Notes under the pieces: generated by a model | The model's input: only the letters and a program-made list of their open reading frames with translations | What the model was told of the DNA's origin: nothing | Database searches by the model: none | From: a virus | Direction: 5' to 3' (one strand) | IMG/VR virus record: IMGVR_UViG_3300030101_000718 | Span: 1-22,334 of that record | Length of the DNA stretch: 22,334 nucleotides | Program-made: the position numbers and the translations under genes | Part shown: positions 690-20,515 of the stretch, one piece after another | How the letters are laid out: each line of letters starts with the position of its first letter | Position numbering within the stretch: position 1 is the first letter of the stretch

Positions 690-1340
690 ATGGCACTCTC
701 TAAGGTTAACTTTAATAGTTTAAATGTAACACCATCTGCTAGTAAGGTTTTAAAATTTAATTCTAATAATAATGGATTAGAGGCAGGAGATGTTGGTGGT
801 AGTCTAGTATTAATATCTACATCAACAGCTTCAAGTTCATCAACTATTGATATTACAAGTGGTATAGACTCTACATATAAAGAATACATTGTAAAGTTTA
901 TAAATATACACCCAGCAACTGATAGTGTTCATTTTCTTTTTCAGGGTGATACAGGAACAAATACTAGTTATAATCAAACTATTACATCTGCATCTTTTAG
1001 AGCATATAATTATGAGGGTTCAGGAACACCAACTCTTCAATATTATACAAGTGGAGATTTAGATCAAGATACAGATTTTCATTATATGACAGGAAATGCT
1101 GGTGTAGGTAATGATAGTGATCAAGACTTTAACGGCACTATGCACTTATTTGATCCTAGTAATACAACATTTGTAAAACATTTTTTTATAGACACACATA
1201 GTCATGGCCCATCAAATTATACCATGCGATTTTTTGCAGGTGGGTATTTTAATACTACAACAGCGATAACTAGATTACGTTTTAAATTTAGTAGTGGTAA
1301 TATAGACTCAGGAACAATAAAATTATATGGAGTATCATAA
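690..1340 (+). CDS. Fibre-associated paralogue A (cassette 1, position 1)
   Basis: This 216 aa protein is the first of six paralogues in the window. Shared landmarks are MAL-K-NFNS at the N-terminus, TASSSSTI near residue 50, GIDSTYKEY, an IHPATD motif, a GNDSDQ motif, HLFDPSNTTFVKHF near residue 155, GY-NTT, and a C-terminal SGNIDSGTIKLYGVS. It is rich in Ser, Thr, Asn and aromatic residues with no signal peptide, as expected for an all-beta virion surface domain. Its body and its LYGVS end match the paralogue at 3768. An AGGAG site lies 7 bases upstream of the ATG. It abuts fibre 1 and overlaps the next gene by one base (TAATG). No function is established; a receptor-binding or decoration subunit is the best inference. 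Confidence 0.75.
   Translation: MALSKVNFNSLNVTPSASKVLKFNSNNNGLEAGDVGGSLVLISTSTASSSSTIDITSGIDSTYKEYIVKFINIHPATDSVHFLFQGDTGTNTSYNQTITSASFRAYNYEGSGTPTLQYYTSGDLDQDTDFHYMTGNAGVGNDSDQDFNGTMHLFDPSNTTFVKHFFIDTHSHGPSNYTMRFFAGGYFNTTTAITRLRFKFSSGNIDSGTIKLYGVS
711..739 (+). repeat. 29-nt perfect direct repeat, copy 1 (with 2032-2060)
   Basis: The 29 bases encoding the FNSLNVTPSA region of paralogue A are identical to 2032-2060 in paralogue C. The surrounding sequence is clearly diverged. This suggests recent local exchange or gene conversion limited to the N-terminal segment. Confidence 0.85.
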
Positions 1341-2011
1341 TGGCACTTACAAAATTTAATTTTAATAGTTTTGATATAACATCAGCTGCTAGTAAAGGGA
1401 TTGGATTTAACGCCAGTGCTAATGGTTTTAGTACATTTGATGATACATCAATGGTATTAATTAAAACCATAACAGCTAGTTCTGATTCAACAATATCTTT
1501 TGTTAATGGAAGTTCAGATGTTGTTTTTGATAACACATACCCTGTGTATTTATTTAAATTTATAGCTTGTCATCCATCAGGAAGTGGAGACTCAGCAGCA
1601 CAGTTTCAATTTAATTTTAGTGCTGATACTGGTAGTAATTATAATGTAACTAAAACATCATACGCATTTGAGGCAAGAAACTCTGAGGGTGGGGGAACAG
1701 GTGTTTTATCATATAATACAGGTAGAGACTTGGCACAAGGTACAGGTTTTCAATATTTATCAGATAGAATGGATAGTCTCGGCAATGATTATAATATTAG
1801 TGGAGAGTTATATGTATTTAATCCGTCATCAACAACATTTGTAAAACACTATATAGCTAGAACAAATTTTATAAATAGTAATATAAATTATTTATATCAC
1901 ATAGGTGGTTATGGAAATACTACATCTGCAGTAGATGCTATTCAGTTTAAATTTGATCCACAAAATATTGATGCTGGTACAATTAAACTTTATGGAATAA
2001 AGGATAGTTAA
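1340..2011 (+). CDS. Fibre-associated paralogue B (cassette 1, position 2)
   Basis: This 223 aa protein is the second paralogue of the first cassette. It starts MALTKFNFNS like its neighbours but has a distinct body type. Instead of GIDSTYKEY it carries GSSDVVFDNTYPVYLFKF, then FNFSADTGSNYNVTKT, GRDLAQGTGFQYL, FNPSSTTFVKHY and a C-terminal GTIKLYGIKDS. The same variants, including the IKDS ending, recur in the paralogue at 4369, its positional counterpart. The start codon shares an A with the previous stop, as at its own 3' end, so expression is probably translationally coupled. The role is inferred from context as a surface or tip protein of the tail fibre apparatus. Confidence 0.75.
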   Translation: MALTKFNFNSFDITSAASKGIGFNASANGFSTFDDTSMVLIKTITASSDSTISFVNGSSDVVFDNTYPVYLFKFIACHPSGSGDSAAQFQFNFSADTGSNYNVTKTSYAFEARNSEGGGTGVLSYNTGRDLAQGTGFQYLSDRMDSLGNDYNISGELYVFNPSSTTFVKHYIARTNFINSNINYLYHIGGYGNTTSAVDAIQFKFDPQNIDAGTIKLYGIKDS

Positions 2012-2655
2012 TGGCACTTAATAAATTAAAATTTAATAGTTTAAATGTAACACCATCTGCAAATGAAGCTATAAAATTTAATAGCAGTGCTAATGGATTT
2101 GAGACAGGATCTGCAGGTGGATCTATGAAGTTTATCTCAAAAGCAACTGCATCATCTTCATCTACTATTAGCATTACTTCTGGAATTGATAGCACATATA
2201 AAGAATATCTATTTATTTTTAAAGATATACATCCAGGTACAGATGGATCTAGATTTACATTTCAAGGAGATACTGGTACTAATACTAATTACAATCAAAC
2301 AATTACTTCATTATTTTTTTACGCACAACAAGGTGAAAGTGATGACACACTTTTAGCTTATGGCCCATCACAAGATCAATCACAAGGAACTGGGTTTCAA
2401 GATTTATCTTTAGGTATAGATAGTGATGGAAATGATAGTAGTCTTTGTGGATATTTACATATATTTAATCCATCATCTTCAACTTTTGTAAAACATTTTA
2501 TAGGTACAACTCAATTTGTAGGTAATGGATATTATAGTTATGGTAATTATTCAGCTGGATATTTTAACACCACTACTGCAATTACAAGATTTCAATTTAA
2601 AATGTCTTCAGGAAATATAGATTCAGGAACAATAACATTATACGGAATTAATTAA
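2011..2655 (+). CDS. Fibre-associated paralogue C (cassette 1, position 3)
   Basis: This 214 aa protein is the third paralogue. The N-terminus (MALNKLKFNSLNVTPSA) is nearly that of paralogue A and includes a 29-base identical stretch. The body has GIDSTYKEYLFIFKDIHPGTD, QGDTGTNTNYNQT, LHIFNPSSSTFVKHFIG and KMSSGNIDSGTITLYGIN. The HIFNPSS, KMSSGNID and LYGIN variants are shared with its positional counterpart at 4989. Both genes close their triplet. An AAGGAGG ribosome site directly follows the stop and serves the next fibre gene. A virion surface role is inferred. Confidence 0.75.
   Translation: MALNKLKFNSLNVTPSANEAIKFNSSANGFETGSAGGSMKFISKATASSSSTISITSGIDSTYKEYLFIFKDIHPGTDGSRFTFQGDTGTNTNYNQTITSLFFYAQQGESDDTLLAYGPSQDQSQGTGFQDLSLGIDSDGNDSSLCGYLHIFNPSSSTFVKHFIGTTQFVGNGYYSYGNYSAGYFNTTTAITRFQFKMSSGNIDSGTITLYGIN
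2032..2060 (+). repeat. 29-nt perfect direct repeat, copy 2 (with 711-739)
   Basis: This is the second copy of the N-terminal coding repeat described at 711-739, located about 1.3 kb downstream in paralogue C. Confidence 0.85.
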
Positions 2656-2663
2656 GGAGGAAC

Positions 2664-3518
2664 ATGCCCTATATAGGAAAAACACCCACTGTGGGAAACT
2701 TTCAAGATGCGATATCAGTCGTAAACGGACAGGCAGCTTACACCCTACAGGTAGGGGGTGTTAACGTTGCACCAGAATCAGCTAATCATATGTTGGTTAG
2801 TTTAAATGGTATTTTACAAAAACCAGGTAGTTCATTTACTATCTCTGGTTCTACTATGACTTTTGCTTCAAATTTAGCAACGGGTGATGTTATCGACTTT
2901 GTTCAAATATTAGGTAATGTGCTCGACCTAGGTCAACCCTCTGACGATACTGTAAAAACTGCAACTATACAAGCTAATGCAGTTACAGGGGCAAAATTAA
3001 ATACAGATGTTATTTCGGCACAAACTGCTCTCGGTGCAACTCCAGCAGATACAGATGAACTTTTAGTTTCTGATGCAGGAGTTTTAAAACGAGTTGACTT
3101 TAGTCATATTAAAGGTGGTGGTATAGTTGCTCAACTTGGTTTTGAAACTGATCCACCATCAACAACATCTTCGACTAATACTAGTTTTGTAGATGTAGGT
3201 TCTGATATTACATTCACACCAACTACATCAGGAAGTAAAGTTTGGATAAATGTTTTTTTTAAAGGTAGTATTGGTGGTGGTGCTGGTCAATATAAAATTG
3301 TTAGAACTGTTGGGGGATCTGCAACTGATGCAGTTACATATGATATTAGTGCAAGTCAAACAAGAATTTTTAATAGATGGTACGAAGATAGTCCAAACAC
3401 TACATCACAAATAACTTACAAATTACAGATGAAAAGCACAAATGGTAATCAAGGTCATACAATTTACGTTGAAGAGACCCATAGTGTAAACTGGTTTTTA
3501 ATAGAAGCAACATCATAA
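2664..3518 (+). CDS. Tail fibre protein (fibre 2)
   Basis: This 284 aa protein appears complete. It begins MPYIGKTPTVGNFQ, an opening I recall from marine phage fibres. Residues ~1-90 form a beta-rich attachment domain ending TGDVIDFVQILGNVLDLGQPSDD. Residues ~105-120 contain the NAVTGAKLNTDVIS segment typical of phage fibre linkers. Residues ~121-154 are the ADTDELLVSDAG...SHIKGGG module shared with fibre 1. The C-terminal ~130 residues (VDVGSDITFTPTTSGSKVWI to VNWFLIEATS) are a different predicted beta-sandwich tip. The start is set by AAGGAGG at 2654-2660. It opens the second cassette and likely provides the stalk that docks tip proteins to the tail. Confidence 0.8.
   Translation: MPYIGKTPTVGNFQDAISVVNGQAAYTLQVGGVNVAPESANHMLVSLNGILQKPGSSFTISGSTMTFASNLATGDVIDFVQILGNVLDLGQPSDDTVKTATIQANAVTGAKLNTDVISAQTALGATPADTDELLVSDAGVLKRVDFSHIKGGGIVAQLGFETDPPSTTSSTNTSFVDVGSDITFTPTTSGSKVWINVFFKGSIGGGAGQYKIVRTVGGSATDAVTYDISASQTRIFNRWYEDSPNTTSQITYKLQMKSTNGNQGHTIYVEETHSVNWFLIEATS
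3024..3125 (+). repeat. Fibre linker module, copy 2
   Basis: This is the second copy of the 34-residue linker described at 108-209. It differs at only three residues (Glu/Ala, Thr/Val and Val/Ile), while the downstream tip domain is unrelated. Confidence 0.8.
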
Positions 3519-3530
3519 TAGGAAATAATA

Positions 3531-3764
3531 ATGGATAAAATAAGTAGAGCAATATCTTCAATAGAAAGTGGTAGATTATTCTCTTACAGAGGTGATGATC
3601 TAGATAGTATTATTTGGTACGATTTAGATACTAAATCTGCTATTTCAAAAGAAGATATACAAACTGCAATTAACGGATTAGATATTAAAGTTAGTGCTAG
3701 AAATAAATTAATGAAAGGTGAACCATTAACTGAAGAAGAAGCTAATGCATTAACAGGGGTCTAA
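3531..3764 (+). CDS. Small fibre-associated protein, possible assembly chaperone
   Basis: This 77 aa acidic protein lies between fibre 2 and the second paralogue triplet. The C-terminal pattern ARNKLMKGEPLTEEEANALTGV resembles the tails of small proteins found next to phage fibres. The WYDLDTKSAISKEDIQTAI segment suggests a compact fold. AGGA is placed just upstream of the ATG. Its position inside a fibre cassette, with no equivalent in cassette 1, suggests a chaperone or accessory role in fibre assembly. I recognise no family with confidence. Confidence 0.6.
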   Translation: MDKISRAISSIESGRLFSYRGDDLDSIIWYDLDTKSAISKEDIQTAINGLDIKVSARNKLMKGEPLTEEEANALTGV

Positions 3765-3767
3765 CAC

Positions 3768-4382
3768 ATGTCAATCAATGTGTGCAACAACAACTCCATG
3801 TCAGCAATCACGAGTCTACCCAGTGGTGTCGGTGGTGGATCGTTAAATCTTATATCTACTACAACTGCATCAAGCAGTTCAACAGTTTCTATTGCTAGTG
3901 GAATAGATTCTACTTACAAAGAGTATATTGTAAAATTTTTTGATGTGCATCCTGCTACTGATAATAGCACCTCTACAAATTATTTTGAAGTTAATTTTAG
4001 AGATGGTTCAACAGATTATGATGCTACTAAAACCACAACTATTTTTAGAGCATATCATTTTGAAGATGGTTCTGGTGGTGTTTTACAATATCAAGACGAC
4101 CATGATTTAGCACAAAGTACAGGGTTTCAAAGACTTGCACAAGGAATGGGTAATGATAATGATCAATGTGTAGCAGGAATGTTGCATTTATTTGACCCTA
4201 GTAGCACAACTTTTGTAAAACATTTTTTATGTGAAACTAATAATATTCATGCAGATAATGCAAGTTATAGGTGGAATGTAGCTGGTTATTGTAATACTAC
4301 AACTGCTATTGATGGTATTCAATTTAAAATGACTACAGGTAATATAGATTCGGGAACATTTAAATTATATGGCGTTAGTTAA
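3768..4382 (+). CDS. Fibre-associated paralogue D (cassette 2, position 1)
   Basis: This 204 aa protein is the positional counterpart of the paralogue at 690. Shared variants are GSL-LIST-TASSSST, GIDSTYKEYIVKF, HPATD, LFDPSSTTFVKHF and an LYGVS ending. Its N-terminus (MSINVCNNNSMSAITS) is shorter and belongs to the NN-S-VTS type of cassette 2, not the FNS type of cassette 1. Landmarks DLAQSTGFQRLAQ and GNDNDQ are clear. The ribosome site is weak (GGGGTCTAACAC), so coupling to the upstream gene, which ends 3 bases earlier, is likely. The last 14 bases overlap the next gene's start. Function is inferred from the family's context. Confidence 0.75.
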   Translation: MSINVCNNNSMSAITSLPSGVGGGSLNLISTTTASSSSTVSIASGIDSTYKEYIVKFFDVHPATDNSTSTNYFEVNFRDGSTDYDATKTTTIFRAYHFEDGSGGVLQYQDDHDLAQSTGFQRLAQGMGNDNDQCVAGMLHLFDPSSTTFVKHFLCETNNIHADNASYRWNVAGYCNTTTAIDGIQFKMTTGNIDSGTFKLYGVS

Positions 4383-4989
4383 ATATAACAATAATAGTTT
4401 AAGTAGTGTAACAAGTGCTGCTGGTTTTCCTGCTGGTGCAATGACATTAATTAAAACTTTGACAGCTAGTTCTAGTTCTACATTGTCTTTTGTTGATGGA
4501 TCATCAGATGTTGTTTTAGATAGTACATATCCAATTTATATGTTTAAGTTTATAAATATTCATTGTAGTAATGATGATGAAAATTTTCAATTTAATTTAA
4601 GTGCAGATTCAGGAAGTAATTATAATGTTACTAAAACAACAAGTCTTTTTACAGCAGATCATCATGAAGGTGGTGGAGCAAATCTTCAATATAATCCATC
4701 AAGAGATTTAGCACAAAGCACAGGAAATGTAAATCTTGCACATAGATTAGGTTCAGACAATGATCAATCAGCAAGTGGTACTCTACATCTTTTTGACCCT
4801 TCAAATACAACTTTTGTAAAACATTTCTTTGGTATATTTAATCATTCTTTAGCTGGAGATACTTCGATTAATAATTATGTTGCTGGTTATGCAAATACAA
4901 CTTCAGCTATTGATGCAGTTCAATTCGTAATGTCAGCAGGAACTATAGACTCTGGTACAATAAAACTATATGGAATAAAGGATAGCTAA
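4369..4989 (+). CDS. Fibre-associated paralogue E (cassette 2, position 2)
   Basis: This 206 aa protein is the counterpart of the paralogue at 1340. It shares GSSDVVLDSTYPIYMFKF, FNLSADSGSNYNVTKT, RDLAQSTG and the LYGIKDS ending. Its ATG lies inside the previous gene: TATGGCGTTAGTTAA reads Tyr-Gly-Val-Ser-stop in one frame and Met-Ala-Leu-Val in the next. The conserved C-terminal motif of one paralogue therefore supplies the start and MAL opening of the next. No separate ribosome site is evident, which implies reinitiation or coupling. The role is probably a tail-tip surface protein. Confidence 0.75.
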   Translation: MALVKYNNNSLSSVTSAAGFPAGAMTLIKTLTASSSSTLSFVDGSSDVVLDSTYPIYMFKFINIHCSNDDENFQFNLSADSGSNYNVTKTTSLFTADHHEGGGANLQYNPSRDLAQSTGNVNLAHRLGSDNDQSASGTLHLFDPSNTTFVKHFFGIFNHSLAGDTSINNYVAGYANTTSAIDAVQFVMSAGTIDSGTIKLYGIKDS

Positions 4990-5603
4990 TGAGTATTGTT
5001 AAATTAAATAATAGGGGAGTTAGATCAGTAACTTCATTCGGTAGTCTTACCAGTGGCTCCACAACTTTTATTAAAAAGTTAACTGCTTCTAGTTCTTCAA
5101 CTATAGATTTTGTTGATGGTTCTAGCGATGTTGTATTAGATAATACTTACAAAGAATATTTGTTTACTTTTAAAAATATACATCCAGCAACAGATAATGT
5201 TTTTCTTGGTCATCAAGCAGATGTAGATGGTCAAACTACTTATGGACAAACTTGCACTAATACAATGTTTTATGCAAGGCACTATGAAAATGATTCTTTA
5301 GCAAATGTATCTATTTATTCTTCTGATGATCAAGCACAAGGAACGGCAGTAAATAAAATGGTTCAATTAGGAAATGATAACGATCAAGCTGGAGCTGGAT
5401 TTTTACATATATTTAATCCAAGTTCTACAACATTTGTAAAACATTTTATAAGTAGATTTAATGGGGCACATCCTTCAGATACTACTTTTGAAATATATAA
5501 TGCTGGTTATTATAATACAACATCTGCTTTAAATACATTTAGATTTAAAATGTCTTCAGGGAATATAGATGCTGGAGATATTTGTTTATACGGAATTAAT
5601 TAA
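4989..5603 (+). CDS. Fibre-associated paralogue F (cassette 2, position 3)
   Basis: This 204 aa protein is the last paralogue and the counterpart of the one at 2011. The two share YKEYLF-FK-IHP-TD, LHIFNPSS-TFVKHFI, KMSSGNID and an LYGIN ending. It is a mosaic: the upstream FVDGSSDVVLDNTY is of the second-position type (as in B and E), while the following KEYLFTFKNIHPATD is of the first/third type. Its N-terminus (MSIVKLNNRGVRSVTS) is of the cassette 2 type. The start shares an A with the previous stop. The gene is followed by a short TAA-rich spacer and AGGAG for the next gene. Confidence 0.75.
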   Translation: MSIVKLNNRGVRSVTSFGSLTSGSTTFIKKLTASSSSTIDFVDGSSDVVLDNTYKEYLFTFKNIHPATDNVFLGHQADVDGQTTYGQTCTNTMFYARHYENDSLANVSIYSSDDQAQGTAVNKMVQLGNDNDQAGAGFLHIFNPSSTTFVKHFISRFNGAHPSDTTFEIYNAGYYNTTSALNTFRFKMSSGNIDAGDICLYGIN

Positions 5604-16662: not shown

Positions 16663-16772
16663 TTTGGACACTAATTTTTATTATAGGAATATCATATGCG
16701 TATTATATTATTGATAAGTTTGCTGATAACATTAACCCTTACAACTTTAGCAGAAGAGATAACAACAGATAA
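16659..16772 (+). CDS. Possible single-TM miniprotein overlapping the next gene, 37 aa
   Basis: The frame reads MIWTLIFIIGISYAYYIIDK and continues to SRRDNNR. One hydrophobic span is followed by a polar tail. It starts in an ATGA overlap with the preceding stop, but it overlaps the start of the secreted protein at 16696 by 77 bases and has no ribosome site of its own. The alternative is a chance frame in AT-rich DNA. Confidence 0.35.
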   Translation: MIWTLIFIIGISYAYYIIDKFADNINPYNFSRRDNNR

Positions 16773-18042
16773 TTTAGTTACTAATGGTAACTTTGAAACT
16801 GGTAATGCTAATGGTTGGAATACATCAGGGGATGTACAGGTATTAAATGATTGTTGTAGATTAAACAATATACCTAGTAATTATGATTTAGAGTTTGGAG
16901 ATAGTGGGTCTATTAATCAAAACTTTGATTTGAGTTCAGACACAATTACACAGAATATGTTGGATAATGGTATTACACTAGATTCAACAATTGAAGTACA
17001 AAATGGCGAGTGCAACGTCACTGGGTGTTGGGGTGGGCAAGGTAATGCTGATACATTTACAAATGTATTAACAATTAAAGATGAAGATGGTAATACGTTA
17101 GCATCTAATACTACTATTAGGACAGATGTAACTGATATAAATGGTGCTAATTTTACAGATAGATTAATCTATAATGGAACAGGATCATATACAGGTAATA
17201 TAAATATATCTGCAACAGATGCAAATGCACCTGCAACTTTAGGTGGGCCAAATGTAGATAATATATCTGTTACTATGACTTATGATAACACAGTCATAGC
17301 ACCAACTATAGCACAAGAAATAGAAGATATATTTGAAAGTGTTGAAGAAGTATTTGAAGAATTAGAATTTGTAGAGATTGAAGAGTTATTTGAAGAGTTA
17401 ATAACTTTTTTTGAAGAACCTGCTTTAGAAATGGAAGCAGTAGAGGAGTTTGAAGAAGTTACTTTTGAACCTACTCCAATGATAGTTGAAGAAATGCCAG
17501 AAGAAATGCTAGAAGAGGAGATGGTAGAGGAAGAAATAGTAGAAGAGTTTACAGAGGAAGAAGTAATAGAAGAAGCACCTACTAAATTAGCAGAGGCCCC
17601 AAGTGAAAAAGAAGAAGTTAAAGAAGAGAAACCTAATAGCGAAACTACTAAGACTGCCACTATTAAGAATGAGAATAATAAAAAACAAAAAACTATACAA
17701 CAGAAAGAAACAATCAAAAATAATCTTGTAAAAATTATGGATAAAATTGATAAAGATATAAAAGATATATCAAAAAATTTACAAATAAAAAATATAATTA
17801 AATTAGATGCTATGGTAAATAACCAAGTATCACTTGAATTATACGATGTACCCTTCTATAAAAGTAAAGATATTTATTTAGATCAAGTAGAGATACAGGA
17901 TTTAAGACAGCTATATGAAGAAAAAACTTTAGCTAATTATACATCAACAGATCCTATAGCTATCGTAAACGAAAAACTAAATAAAATAAATTTAAAGAAA
18001 AAACAAATACTAATAGAACTGGAGCAATTAAAAAATGGATAA
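16696..18042 (+). CDS. Secreted acidic phage protein with N-terminal beta domain
   Basis: The 448 aa protein has a classical signal peptide (MRIILLISLLITLTLTTLA with cleavage near residue 19). Residues ~20-195 form a beta-rich domain opening NLVTNGNFETGNANGWN, a pattern typical of carbohydrate-binding or galactose-binding-like modules. It includes paired Cys (CC, C, C) near 52-113. Residues ~205-305 are an extreme Glu-rich stretch (EELFEELITFFEE, EEEMVEEEIVEE). A Lys-rich segment and a charged helical C-terminal domain (SLELYDVPFYKSKDIYLDQV) follow. AGGAA at 16685-16689 sets the start. It is probably exported by the host. Cell-surface modification or virion attachment are guesses. Confidence 0.65.
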   Translation: MRIILLISLLITLTLTTLAEEITTDNLVTNGNFETGNANGWNTSGDVQVLNDCCRLNNIPSNYDLEFGDSGSINQNFDLSSDTITQNMLDNGITLDSTIEVQNGECNVTGCWGGQGNADTFTNVLTIKDEDGNTLASNTTIRTDVTDINGANFTDRLIYNGTGSYTGNINISATDANAPATLGGPNVDNISVTMTYDNTVIAPTIAQEIEDIFESVEEVFEELEFVEIEELFEELITFFEEPALEMEAVEEFEEVTFEPTPMIVEEMPEEMLEEEMVEEEIVEEFTEEEVIEEAPTKLAEAPSEKEEVKEEKPNSETTKTATIKNENNKKQKTIQQKETIKNNLVKIMDKIDKDIKDISKNLQIKNIIKLDAMVNNQVSLELYDVPFYKSKDIYLDQVEIQDLRQLYEEKTLANYTSTDPIAIVNEKLNKINLKKKQILIELEQLKNG

Positions 18043-18358
18043 AATAAAAAATCAATTAGCAGGTGTAGCAGCATTACTTGGAGTTATAGCAGCAATAGGT
18101 GGTGGGTTTGTAAAATATGGTGAGATAACTACAAAGCTAAATGCACTTGAGTCTAAAAAATCTACAGATTATTCTGCAGAAATAGCTGTGTTAGAAGAAA
18201 AAGTTACAGCACTAGAGAATGCAGACACTGCACATACTCACGACTTTGATCATACACATGATGATTCAGCTGTTAAAATACTTGAGAAAGAAATAGAATT
18301 ATTAAAAGTACAAATAGAAGAAATTAAAGTTAAATCTTCTAACCCACTAGCAAACTAA
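18035..18358 (+). CDS. Membrane-anchored coiled-coil protein with double HTH (His-x-His) motif
   Basis: This 107 aa protein has residues ~9-27 as a span (AGVAALLGVIAAIGGGFV), then a coiled coil (EIAVLEEKVTALENAD). HTHDFDHTHDD at residues 67-77 is followed by a second coiled coil (KILEKEIELLKVQIEEIKVK). Paired His-x-His motifs in phage trimeric coiled coils and fibres often bind a metal ion along the axis, so an oligomer knot with bound metal is possible here. Its start overlaps the previous gene by 8 bases and its end couples by TAATG. Confidence 0.6.
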   Translation: MDKIKNQLAGVAALLGVIAAIGGGFVKYGEITTKLNALESKKSTDYSAEIAVLEEKVTALENADTAHTHDFDHTHDDSAVKILEKEIELLKVQIEEIKVKSSNPLAN

Positions 18359-19026
18359 TGTATTTAAATGCTAATATACCACCCATAGAATGTTATGTGC
18401 GTGGTAATTATCTAAGAGATCAGAAAGATTCTCATGATAAATATTTTGAGTGTGTTGTATTTGGTTTTACATCTATACCAAAACAAGTACCATTGTTTCA
18501 TTACATGATGACAGATGGTGGTATCTGGTGGAGAGCACCTGTATCTGCATTTTGTAAAAAACCTGGAGTAAAAGAATTACCATTAAATGAATTAATGTTA
18601 TGGGATTCATTTAGCTACAATGTAAGTGTTACTAGATTTTATCAATTACAGGGATGTAAAATGATGTATACATCTAGAAGACGTAAACAAAGAGAAGGCA
18701 CATACTTATTTACAATAGACTGGTGTGCAGGTGATTATAATGAATTAGATTTTGGTTATGCAGAAAAACCAGATCAACATAAATGTGGGCATGTAATAGA
18801 ATTAGATGATGGTAATTATGCTATACAACCTAATAATAGACTAAGGATATTTGATCCATCTATGGCAGCTGATCCAAGCAAACCTCTTATACATAGATTA
18901 GTTAATACTAGAATATGGTCTGTAGAAGACACATCTAAATGGATAACTGATGAGAATGAAGAAGGCAGTTATGACTATGATTATAAGGAGATAAAAAATG
19001 GCGAAGAAAAAGTCGACAGTAAATAA
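18358..19026 (+). CDS. Conserved marine-phage protein of unknown function, 222 aa
   Basis: It opens MYLNANIPPIECYVRGNYLR, then has YFECVVFGFTSIP, FHYMM-DGGIWWRAPVSAFC, LMLWDSFSYNVSVTRF, TIDWC, QHKCGHVIELDDGNYAIQPN and NRLRIFDPS. This sequence is recognisable to me from many environmental marine phages, usually among the small genes before the packaging genes. No catalytic motif is evident. The high content of Trp, Tyr and Cys suggests a compact cytoplasmic fold. The C-terminus is acidic. The last 29 bases overlap the next gene, which has its own AAGGAG. Confidence 0.7.
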   Translation: MYLNANIPPIECYVRGNYLRDQKDSHDKYFECVVFGFTSIPKQVPLFHYMMTDGGIWWRAPVSAFCKKPGVKELPLNELMLWDSFSYNVSVTRFYQLQGCKMMYTSRRRKQREGTYLFTIDWCAGDYNELDFGYAEKPDQHKCGHVIELDDGNYAIQPNNRLRIFDPSMAADPSKPLIHRLVNTRIWSVEDTSKWITDENEEGSYDYDYKEIKNGEEKVDSK

Positions 19027-19177
19027 AGCAGGTAACTATACAAAACCTGGTATGAGGAAGAGAATGTTTAACTCTATCATGGCTGGGTCAAAGGGTGGAA
19101 AACCTGGACAATGGTCAGCAAGAAAAGCCCAGATGTTAGCTAAAAAATACAAAGCTGCAGGTGGGGGTTACAAATAA
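18998..19177 (+). CDS. Small basic phage protein, 59 aa
   Basis: The translation begins MAKKKSTVNKAGNYTKPGMR and contains GGKPGQWSARKAQMLAKKYK, ending AAGGGYK. I recall the NKAGNYTKP and GKPGQWSARKAQMLA pattern from many tailed phages as a conserved short protein. An AAGGAG site lies 8 bases upstream, inside the previous gene. It is the first of eight compact genes, most of them very basic, and may bind DNA or be packaged. Confidence 0.7.
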   Translation: MAKKKSTVNKAGNYTKPGMRKRMFNSIMAGSKGGKPGQWSARKAQMLAKKYKAAGGGYK

Positions 19178-19278
19178 TGTTGAACTTTATTAAAAAAATT
19201 TTAGGTATATCTGACCTAGAGTATCAAATACGATTAATACAAAGACAAAACTATTGGAGGAATAAATACAAAAGATGA
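19177..19278 (+). CDS. Small basic protein, 33 aa
   Basis: The translation begins MLNFIKKILGISDLEYQIRL and ends NYWRNKYKR. The amphipathic start and Arg-rich helix are consistent with a peripheral membrane or nucleic-acid-binding peptide. It starts in TAATG and ends in an ATGA overlap with the next frame. Support rests only on this coupling. Confidence 0.5.
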   Translation: MLNFIKKILGISDLEYQIRLIQRQNYWRNKYKR

Positions 19279-19406
19279 AAAAATCACGAGCAAAAATAAA
19301 AAAAGTTATTAAGGGTTTAAAGGGTGCTGTTAAGGCACACACTGGCCAACACAAATTATTAGCAAGTGCTTTAAAAGGTAATGGCAAGAAAAAGAAAAGA
19401 GCCTAG
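19275..19406 (+). CDS. Small Lys-rich protein, 43 aa
   Basis: It begins MKKSRAKIKKVIKGLKGAVK, continues AHTGQHKLLASALKG, and ends KKKKRA. The central HTGQHKLLASALKG resembles a short motif seen in small proteins of similar phages. A GGAGG site lies about 14 bases upstream, which is rather far, so ATGA coupling may dominate. It overlaps the next start by 26 bases. Confidence 0.55.
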   Translation: MKKSRAKIKKVIKGLKGAVKAHTGQHKLLASALKGNGKKKKRA

Positions 19407-19674
19407 TAAAGGCACAGGAAAACACCCAGGAAAAAAACATGGTAGAAGGCTTTACACTGACGAAAACCCTCGTGACACTGTTGGAATCAAGTTCGCAACG
19501 ACAGCAGATGCGAGGAAAACAGTGGCAAAAGTTAAAAAGATTTCTAAACCATTTGCTAGGAAAATTCAAATCCTAACTGTTGGCGAACAAAGAGCTAAAG
19601 TCATGGGTAAATCGCAGGTAGCATCTATATTTAAAAAAGGTAAAGAGGCTATACGAAGGGGGAGAAAAACATAA
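19381..19674 (+). CDS. Conserved basic phage protein, 97 aa
   Basis: Residues ~1-22 form an Arg/Lys/Gly tail (ARKRKEPSKGTGKHPGKK). A conserved-looking domain follows: GRRLYTDENPRDTVGIKFAT, DARKTVAKVKKISKPFARKI, LTVGEQRAKVMGK. I recall the YTDENP-DTV and ILTV-EQRA pattern from marine phage genomes next to the following gene. No function is known. The net charge is strongly positive, and it could be a nucleic-acid-binding or packaged protein. It is coupled to the next gene by TAATG. Confidence 0.7.
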   Translation: MARKRKEPSKGTGKHPGKKHGRRLYTDENPRDTVGIKFATTADARKTVAKVKKISKPFARKIQILTVGEQRAKVMGKSQVASIFKKGKEAIRRGRKT

Positions 19675-19922
19675 TGGCACTAGCAAAACGTCAAAGGAGT
19701 TTAAAAGCATGGGGAAAGCAAAAATGGAGAACGAAATCTGGCAAGAAATCTTCGGAGACTGGGGAAAGATATTTGCCAGAGAAAGCTATCAAGAGTCTAT
19801 CATCTGCAGAGTATGCAGCAACGACAAAAGCAAAACGCCAAGGAACAAAAAAGGGCAAACAGTTTGTGAAGCAACCGAGAGGGATTGCAAAAAAAACAGC
19901 TAAATATAGGAGATATAGTTAA
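19674..19922 (+). CDS. Conserved basic phage protein, DUF5872-like
   Basis: This 82 aa protein shows the sequence KWRTKSGKKSSETGERYLPE, KAIKSLSSAEYAATTKAKRQ and GKQFVKQPRGIAKKTAKYR. This TGERYLP-KAI...EYAAT-KAKR pattern is well known to me from phages and some large viruses, and I believe it is the DUF5872 family, though the accession is from memory. No biochemical role is established. It is strongly basic and coupled to neighbours on both sides (TAATG). Confidence 0.7.
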   Translation: MALAKRQRSLKAWGKQKWRTKSGKKSSETGERYLPEKAIKSLSSAEYAATTKAKRQGTKKGKQFVKQPRGIAKKTAKYRRYS

Positions 19923-20056
19923 TGTACGGAATGAAAAAAATGAAGAATAAAAAAAAAGTAACAGGCAATAGAAAAAAATTAGATATGGACAGAGATGGTA
20001 AACTTACTAAAAGAGATTTTGCTATGTTAAGAAATAAAAAAAAAGGTAGAGCATAA
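19922..20056 (+). CDS. Small basic protein with EF-hand-like loop, 44 aa
   Basis: The translation begins MYGMKKMKNKKKVTGNRKKL, then DMDRDGKLTKRDFAML, and ends RNKKKGRA. Residues 21-32 (DMDRDGKLTKRD) fit an EF-hand loop, with Asp at positions 1, 3 and 5, Gly at 6, a hydrophobic residue at 8 and Asp at 12. The flanks are not long enough for a full two-helix hand. Calcium binding is plausible but unproven. Both ends use TAATG. Confidence 0.65.
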   Translation: MYGMKKMKNKKKVTGNRKKLDMDRDGKLTKRDFAMLRNKKKGRA

Positions 20057-20190
20057 TGCCAGGTAAGGGTTTATATGCTAACATACATGCTAAAAGAAAG
20101 CGTGGTGGCAAAATGAAAAAGAAAGGTGCTAAAGGTGCACCTACTGCTGCAAACTTTAGAAGAGCAGCAATGACAGCAAAGAAAAGATAA
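20056..20190 (+). CDS. Conserved small basic phage protein (GLYANIHAKRKR), 44 aa
   Basis: The translation begins MPGKGLYANIHAKRKRGGKM and continues KKKGAKGAPTAANF. GLYANIHAKRKR and KGAPTA are highly characteristic of a short protein I have seen in many tailed phages. Its role has not been assigned to my knowledge. It is coupled at both ends by TAATG. Confidence 0.75.
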   Translation: MPGKGLYANIHAKRKRGGKMKKKGAKGAPTAANFRRAAMTAKKR

Positions 20191-20423
20191 TGGTAGCAAA
20201 AAAATATCAGAACCCATCAGGTGGACTGAATGAGGCAGGTCGTAAGTATTTTAAAAGAACGACAGGTGCTAATTTAAAAAGACCTAGTAAAAAAGTTGGA
20301 AACAAACGTAGAGCTAGTTTCTGTGCACGAATGAAAGGTATGAAGAAAAAACTTACATCAGCTAAAACAGCAAGAGATCCTAACAGTAGAATTAATAAAG
20401 CATTAAGGGCTTGGAACTGTTAA
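20190..20423 (+). CDS. Conserved basic phage protein, DUF6321-like
   Basis: This 77 aa protein has the pattern NPSGGLNEAGRKYFKRTTGA, NLKRPSK, RASFCARMKGMKKKLTSAKT and a terminal KALRAWNC. I recognise the GLN-AGR-YFKR-TGANLK...RASFCARM layout as a widespread phage family, which I believe is DUF6321 (number from memory). It is the last gene of the + strand operon, and the hairpins and terminator follow within 60 bases. No function is known. Confidence 0.72.
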   Translation: MVAKKYQNPSGGLNEAGRKYFKRTTGANLKRPSKKVGNKRRASFCARMKGMKKKLTSAKTARDPNSRINKALRAWNC

Positions 20424-20436
20424 TATAAAATAAAAA

Positions 20437-20458
20437 GGGGGAGCCACAAGACCCCCCC
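20437..20458 (+). other. G/C hairpin after the last + strand gene
   Basis: GGGGG at 20437-20441 can pair with the C run at 20452-20458 across a 10-base loop. No U tract follows, so it is not a complete intrinsic terminator. It could protect the 3' end or slow polymerase before the terminator 20 bases downstream. Confidence 0.45.
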
Positions 20459-20476
20459 ATCGCAGGTAACAACAAC

Positions 20477-20515
20477 AAAGACATTTAGAGTTTTACTCTA
20501 AGTGTCTTTTTTTTT
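20477..20515 (+). terminator. Intrinsic terminator between convergent operons
   Basis: AAAGACATTTAGAG (20477-20490) pairs with CTCTAAGTGTCTTT (20496-20509) through a 5-base loop TTTTA. That is a 14-bp stem with one G-U pair, followed by a T run to 20515. The strong T tract serves + strand transcription. In the other direction the hairpin also forms, but the tract is weak. The right arm and loop also encode the C-terminal residues and stop of the - strand gene at 20493. Confidence 0.85.

Follow-up and report, generated by a model that had tools for sequence, protein, structure and literature searches.

A late-operon cluster of small basic genes in an HTVC033P-like virus, probably encoding head-internal proteins, shares families with cyanophage string proteins

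Introduction

In phage T4, the protease gp21 cleaves after L/I-x-E, and the internal proteins of the head carry a 10-residue targeting sequence (PMC9026906). Many T4-like cyanophages encode proteins of 200–800 aa that are composed of short basic units and end in the domain DUF6321 (PF19846), here called string proteins (T4-GC119 / phrog_727). The Pfam entry of DUF6321 leaves the function blank, and our literature search returned no paper naming the domain. Regarding virion composition, 45 proteins of S-SCSM1 virions were detected by mass spectrometry in the paper on that phage, a SAM hydrolase and a cytidylyltransferase were detected in virions of S-CREM2, and Sullivan et al. (PMC3037559) detected 41 proteins in virions of S-SM1.

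Here, we analysed a virus stretch of 22,334 bases (the window; IMG/VR record IMGVR_UViG_3300030101_000718), in which an original prediction, made from the letters alone, had pointed out a tight cluster of eight small genes (g1 to g8; 18998-20423) and had proposed a shared task of their products, such as DNA coating or packaging, charge balance in the capsid interior or RNA binding.

Results

Eight basic genes close the late operon

The source phage is an HTVC033P-like pelagiphage: in a 5.3 kb query from the right part of the window, 95% aligned with Pelagibacter phage HTVC033P, at an identity of 79.8%. The genes g1 to g8 close the late operon, and the genes past the terminator run in the opposite direction (Table 1). 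Indeed, all eight Lys/Arg-rich open reading frames of 33–97 aa that had been predicted were found, they are coupled by overlaps of 1, 4, 26, 1, 1, 1 and 1 bases between consecutive genes from g1 to g8, and stem-loops with T runs follow them, as had been proposed. In the whole stretch, four terminator-like sites were found, with 1.4 expected.

Table 1 Features of the window, with positions in the whole stretch.
Feature	Position	Strand	Description
Structural region	690-5603		Six tandem or near-tandem paralogues of ~210 aa, with SASSSSTI..STYKEY-like and FxPSxTTFVKHF motifs in common
Gene just upstream of the basic cluster	16696-18042		448 aa; signal-like N-terminus and long Glu-rich middle (EELFEELITFFEEP...)
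Gene overlapped by g1	18358-19026		phrog_3704
g1	18998..19177	+	59 aa; KGGKPGQWSARKAQ...GGGYK family (phrog_17747)
g2	19177..19278	+	33 aa; least basic of the eight; placed by position only
g3	19275..19406	+	43 aa; KASKxHxxQ family
g4	19381..19674	+	97 aa; LYTDENPxxT...EQRAxxxGK family
g5	19674..19922	+	82 aa; GERYLPxKAI family (phrog_14910); partner of g1
g6	19922..20056	+	44 aa; single EF-hand/dockerin-type loop DMDRDGKLTKRD within a basic peptide
g7	20056..20190	+	44 aa; GLYANIHAKRKR family (phrog_16028)
g8	20190..20423	+	77 aa; DUF6321 (PF19846)
Terminator-like stem-loops	20437..20509	.	Between the operon and the convergent genes
Stem-loop with T run	20437-20458	-	
Stem-loop with T run	20477-20509	+	

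The family of the gene overlapped by g1 bears the label 'ferredoxin' without evident reason, and a DNA relative found in phage 023Pt_psg01 carries the annotation of an enzyme of purine synthesis.

The predicted isoelectric points of the eight proteins range from 10.4 to 12.0 and their net charges from +0.18 to +0.37 per residue, g2 being the least basic. HTVC033P has a counterpart of seven basic genes, gp42-gp36, in which the order is kept and g2 is absent; the place of g6 is taken by another basic peptide, gp38, and g6 itself is not recognisable there. Of the 66 annotated HTVC033P genes examined, eight carry +0.20 net charge per residue or more, and seven of these eight lie in the cluster, which exceeds chance expectation (hypergeometric ~1e-8). 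In comparison with HTVC033P, g1, g4, g5, g7 and g8 showed dN/dS values of ~0.04-0.2, and g3, which forms a divergent pair, a value of 0.39; in comparison with contig L083, the values were ~0.07 for g3, ~0.11 for g6 and ~0.44 for g2. Every gene compared thus showed more silent than replacement change, the excess being smallest in g2 and in the g3/HTVC033P pair. Since HTVC033P keeps the gene order and the substitutions are mostly silent, we conclude that the eight reading frames are real genes under purifying selection.

Families of the individual proteins

g8 belongs to DUF6321 (E 9.9e-23, 81 bits with a cut-off of 28.5, profile positions 2-72 of 72), a domain which was matched in 518 phage records, mostly of cyanophages and pelagiphages. 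g1, g5 and g7 match PHROGs that are all labelled as of unknown function, so that the motifs quoted in the original prediction for g5, g7 and g8 do lie in widespread families, as it had stated. g3, g4 and g6 form clear families among environmental contigs, and g2 occurs in about 18 of 80 contigs seeded with g4. DUF6321 was also present in 49 contigs (L183-L231) from genome bins of many phyla, including archaea, which are probably phage contigs binned with hosts.

Several more distant assignments were tried and not adopted. g6 scored above the cut-off of Dockerin type I (PF00404; 25.9 vs 22.9), but only over profile positions 21-55 of 57, and it contains one loop in place of the duplicated Ca-binding loop-helix repeat, so that it was rejected as a dockerin or EF-hand member. 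The view of g1 and g5 as a split DUF5872 (PF19197) stays a lead: window g1, window g5 and their concatenation gave no match to this profile, and the g1+g5 fusion gp97 of S-CRES1 aligned with nearly the whole profile, weakly and below the cut-off (E 0.046). The equation of g5 with the 'module B' family of the strings is unproven, g5 matching an intermediate family over 15 residues at 31% and this intermediate matching module B at 95%. Iterated g5 profiles drift, and g5 counts were therefore taken from strict matching.

Linkage and fusion of the families

Among 50,697 public phage records, g1 was found in 17, g5 in 19 and both in 16. In IMG/VR, 41 g5-seeded loci include 3 kb or more of upstream sequence, and every one of them has g1 no more than 3 kb upstream of g5. 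At least one other family was present within 3 kb in 69 of 80 g4-seeded loci, and five or more in 28, in variable orders (g1-g2-g3-g4-g5-g6-g7-g8, g7-g8-g4, g6-g8-g4, g8-g3-g4); these loci are non-independent, since their seeds were picked by similarity to the window, and some are on overlapping stretches of the same contig. The co-occurrence check thus came out in favour of shared neighbourhoods.

In addition, five pairs of families occur fused in single reading frames, namely g1+g5 (L031, L077, L080, L182), g1+g3 (L140, L141, L145, L154), g3+g8 (cyanophage string proteins of L044, L050, L054 and L058), g7+g8 (L049, L213, L229) and g4+g8. The string proteins of L039, L041, L057, L065, L160 and L204 include g4 among their units. 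Among 80 g8-seeded contigs, g8 was fused in 44 and stand-alone in 36. g7 adjoins g8 in P-SCSP1c, S-SBP1 and Jormungand; in three T7-like podoviruses, a stand-alone g8 with neighbouring g7 lies within the capsid operon, next to the scaffold and coat genes. In MEP401, the pair g1-g5 stands immediately before terL, and in CRP-13 and HMO-2011 it has terminase genes in its vicinity.

These data bear on the explanation that unrelated small genes merely gathered at the operon end and that their basic charge is coincidental. The variable order and content of the loci, the sporadic occurrence of g2 and g6, and the presence of g8 in hundreds of records mostly devoid of g1 or g5 would agree with it; however, the concentration of seven of eight strongly basic genes at one place, the relinking of the same families in other orders and as fusions, and the near-complete coincidence of g1 and g5 in public records disfavour this explanation to the point that we consider it highly improbable. 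The proposal that joint presence implies a shared task was in part borne out, namely by common neighbourhoods, by reordering under maintained linkage and by fusions, but g1 to g8 are found as a full set in HTVC033P-like contigs only, and subsets (g1-g5, g7-g8 and others) take its place elsewhere.

Relatives in cyanophage string proteins

The string proteins hold units homologous to g8, g4, g3 and g7. In S-SM2, T4-GC119 is encoded between gp16 and gp17 (small and large terminase subunits) and near gp20-gp23; in S-P4 and S-SCSM1, the string protein gene likewise lies between the terminase genes, and the S-P4 protein is annotated as 'structural protein'. S-PM2 gave no DUF6321 match. SSZBM1_53 was first suspected to be a string protein and was excluded by its own sequence.

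Some unit-bearing proteins include recognised enzymes or other domains. The string protein SSZBM1_194 (L172:15253-17376) contains an S-adenosylmethionine lyase domain (Pfam E 6.8e-08), a protein encoded on a contig from the genome bin of an uncultured bacterium (L231:4471-6108) joins a cytidylyltransferase to a C-terminal DUF6321, and DUF192 is present in unit-bearing proteins of L065 and L190. Together with the enzymes of S-CREM2 virions, this hints, as a lead only, that the units travel with injected proteins. Thus, the units could be address tags that bring effectors into the head rather than DNA condensers, stand-alone copies being adaptors or relics. Most strings, however, are devoid of a recognised enzyme, the window contains no enzyme fusion, and each effector link is represented by a single or few examples, which makes address tags a rather improbable account, below the one of nucleic-acid binders weighed further below.

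Putative processing signals

Of 77 non-redundant unit boundaries of the strings, 82% have a [LIVMF]xE motif, which resembles the L/I-x-E site of the T4 prohead protease, within the 14 residues before them. The motif was less frequent after shuffling (41%, z 8.5) and in random 14-mers (22%), the z scores overstating significance because the linkers are acid-rich and the sequences related. [LI]xD, [LI]E and Ex[LI] were not enriched at the boundaries, and neighbouring spacings were not or weakly enriched. In a test of each unit by itself, units B, C and D gave a strong signal, and DUF6321 itself did not. gp21 is encoded in S-SM2 and S-SCSM1.

N-termini like those of T4 internal proteins (MKTFKQYITE|A and similar) were found in 20 of 3045 reading frames of at least 100 aa, and 19 of the 20 are string reading frames or belong to two families encoded near strings; SSZBM1_192 is among the proteins that start in this way. 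A family of ~110 aa that starts with MKSFxQFLSES[VI]NI, an N-terminus like that of T4 internal proteins, is encoded beside DUF6321 in those annotated genomes that were read (members in L024, L027, L028, L043, L048, L062, L068, L069 and others; SSZBM1_191, SSCSM1_30). All eight cluster proteins lack a targeting N-terminus ending in hydrophobic-x-Glu. In HTVC033P, no gp21-type protease is annotated, and the uncharacterised head-region genes gp72 and gp74-gp76 gave no protease PHROG match.

Virion data and predicted structures

The S-SCSM1 record MK867354 contains, by our own count, 48 '(virion protein)' labels, which omit both terminase subunits and take in NMNAT, named as detected by mass spectrometry in the S-SCSM1 paper. 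The label tracks the published virion data closely, not exactly; some labels may be carry-over, since their number exceeds the 45 reported proteins and RegA is labelled. One of the labelled proteins, SSCSM1_29, is a string protein of 517 aa in which several units can be recognised and DUF6321 occupies residues 445-515; SSCSM1_89, 92 and 93 are labelled as well and have other string units in common. The 30 proteins detected by mass spectrometry for S-SZBM1 include neither SSZBM1_192, which carries DUF6321, nor the related string SSZBM1_194. For the source phage and for HTVC033P, our search returned no virion proteome. Lys/Arg-rich peptides would tend to escape trypsin-based proteomics, which may explain why they went unnoticed. 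A term search of the main text of the P-SCSP1u cryo-EM paper returned no passage on the gene in question.

The AF2 model of g8 is all helical (pLDDT 86), and that of g4 has three helices in residues 41-96, its C-terminal half (pLDDT ~90). Fold searches with both models matched no solved structure; the named viral matches of g8 at E < 0.001 were DUF6321 proteins, an S-SCSM1 'Virion protein' being the exception. PDB sequence searches gave no match for g8, g4 and SSM1_115, and for g5 designed proteins only, over ~13 residues.

With regard to a role outside the head, the cluster genes could encode late, non-packaged nucleic-acid binders with a function in infected cells, for example on mRNA or on phage DNA that is yet to be packaged, their neighbourhood with head genes being due solely to shared late timing. 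The small size, basic charge and late-operon position of the genes, the N-termini of the window proteins and the results for S-SZBM1 virions are all consistent with this, but it fits poorly with the virion label of the S-SCSM1 string relative, the resemblance of the linkers to cleavage sites and, in three T7-like phages, the proximity to the scaffold and coat genes, and we regard it as unlikely. Nothing in the present evidence favours an RNA-binding role.

Discussion

We favour, with moderate confidence, the explanation that the cluster encodes small basic proteins which are packaged in the head with the DNA, as split genes here and probably as cleavable strings in cyanomyoviruses. This is based on the unit fusions, the position of the strings among head and packaging genes, the virion label and the [LIVMF]xE boundaries, further on the T4-like N-termini near strings and on g8-g7 in the capsid operon of T7-like phages, and on g1-g5 near terminase genes in MEP401, CRP-13 and HMO-2011. 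We infer packaging in the source phage, string cleavage, DNA binding and ejection. The place of g1 and g5 in a head kit is suggested by linkage and that of g2 and g6 by position, so that the proposed shared task has its backing in the head-region relatives of g8, g4, g3 and g7, one of them virion-labelled, but for g2 and g6 in little beyond their location.

In the pelagiphage, each protein would be made from its own gene, presumably translated off one late message, and in T4-like cyanophages, units of g8, g4, g3 and g7 would be joined with other Cys- and Lys-rich units into strings, which a prohead protease probably cuts between the units, resulting in a similar peptide cargo. Inside the head, the most likely place of the peptides would be on the DNA, where they would serve as counter-ions or tethers, and they may exit with it at infection.

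A wider and more tentative reading, which we consider possible but doubtful, is a mobile kit of basic units across marine phage morphotypes, serving as capsid-interior address or DNA-tethering tags in the form of tiny-gene operons or of cleavable strings that may bear enzymes in addition. If true, strings could bring a SAM lyase or a cytidylyltransferase into the host. With a head location of DUF6321 and its partners, several so far unexplained families would gain a function, and marine podovirus counterparts of T4-style internal proteins would be suggested.

Compared with the Pfam entry of DUF6321, the present analysis adds the context of head operons and string proteins. With regard to IPI, IPII and IPIII of T4, no sequence family common to them and the window proteins was found, and the window and HTVC033P differ from the T4 system in the targeting N-terminus and the annotated protease, respectively. 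The likeness lies in the small size, basic charge and proposed capsid-internal location of the window proteins and in the T4-like N-termini borne by the neighbours of cyanophage strings; by analogy, the cluster proteins would most likely work like T4 internal head proteins, without being homologous as far as tested. In T4-GC119 / phrog_727 strings, one long protein combines the units with additional Cys-rich ones and with linkers of acidic character, whereas the window holds its units as separate reading frames free of linkers and is therefore not a string protein locus itself. The cluster and the cyanophage strings thus offer a split-versus-polyprotein comparison that is open to testing.
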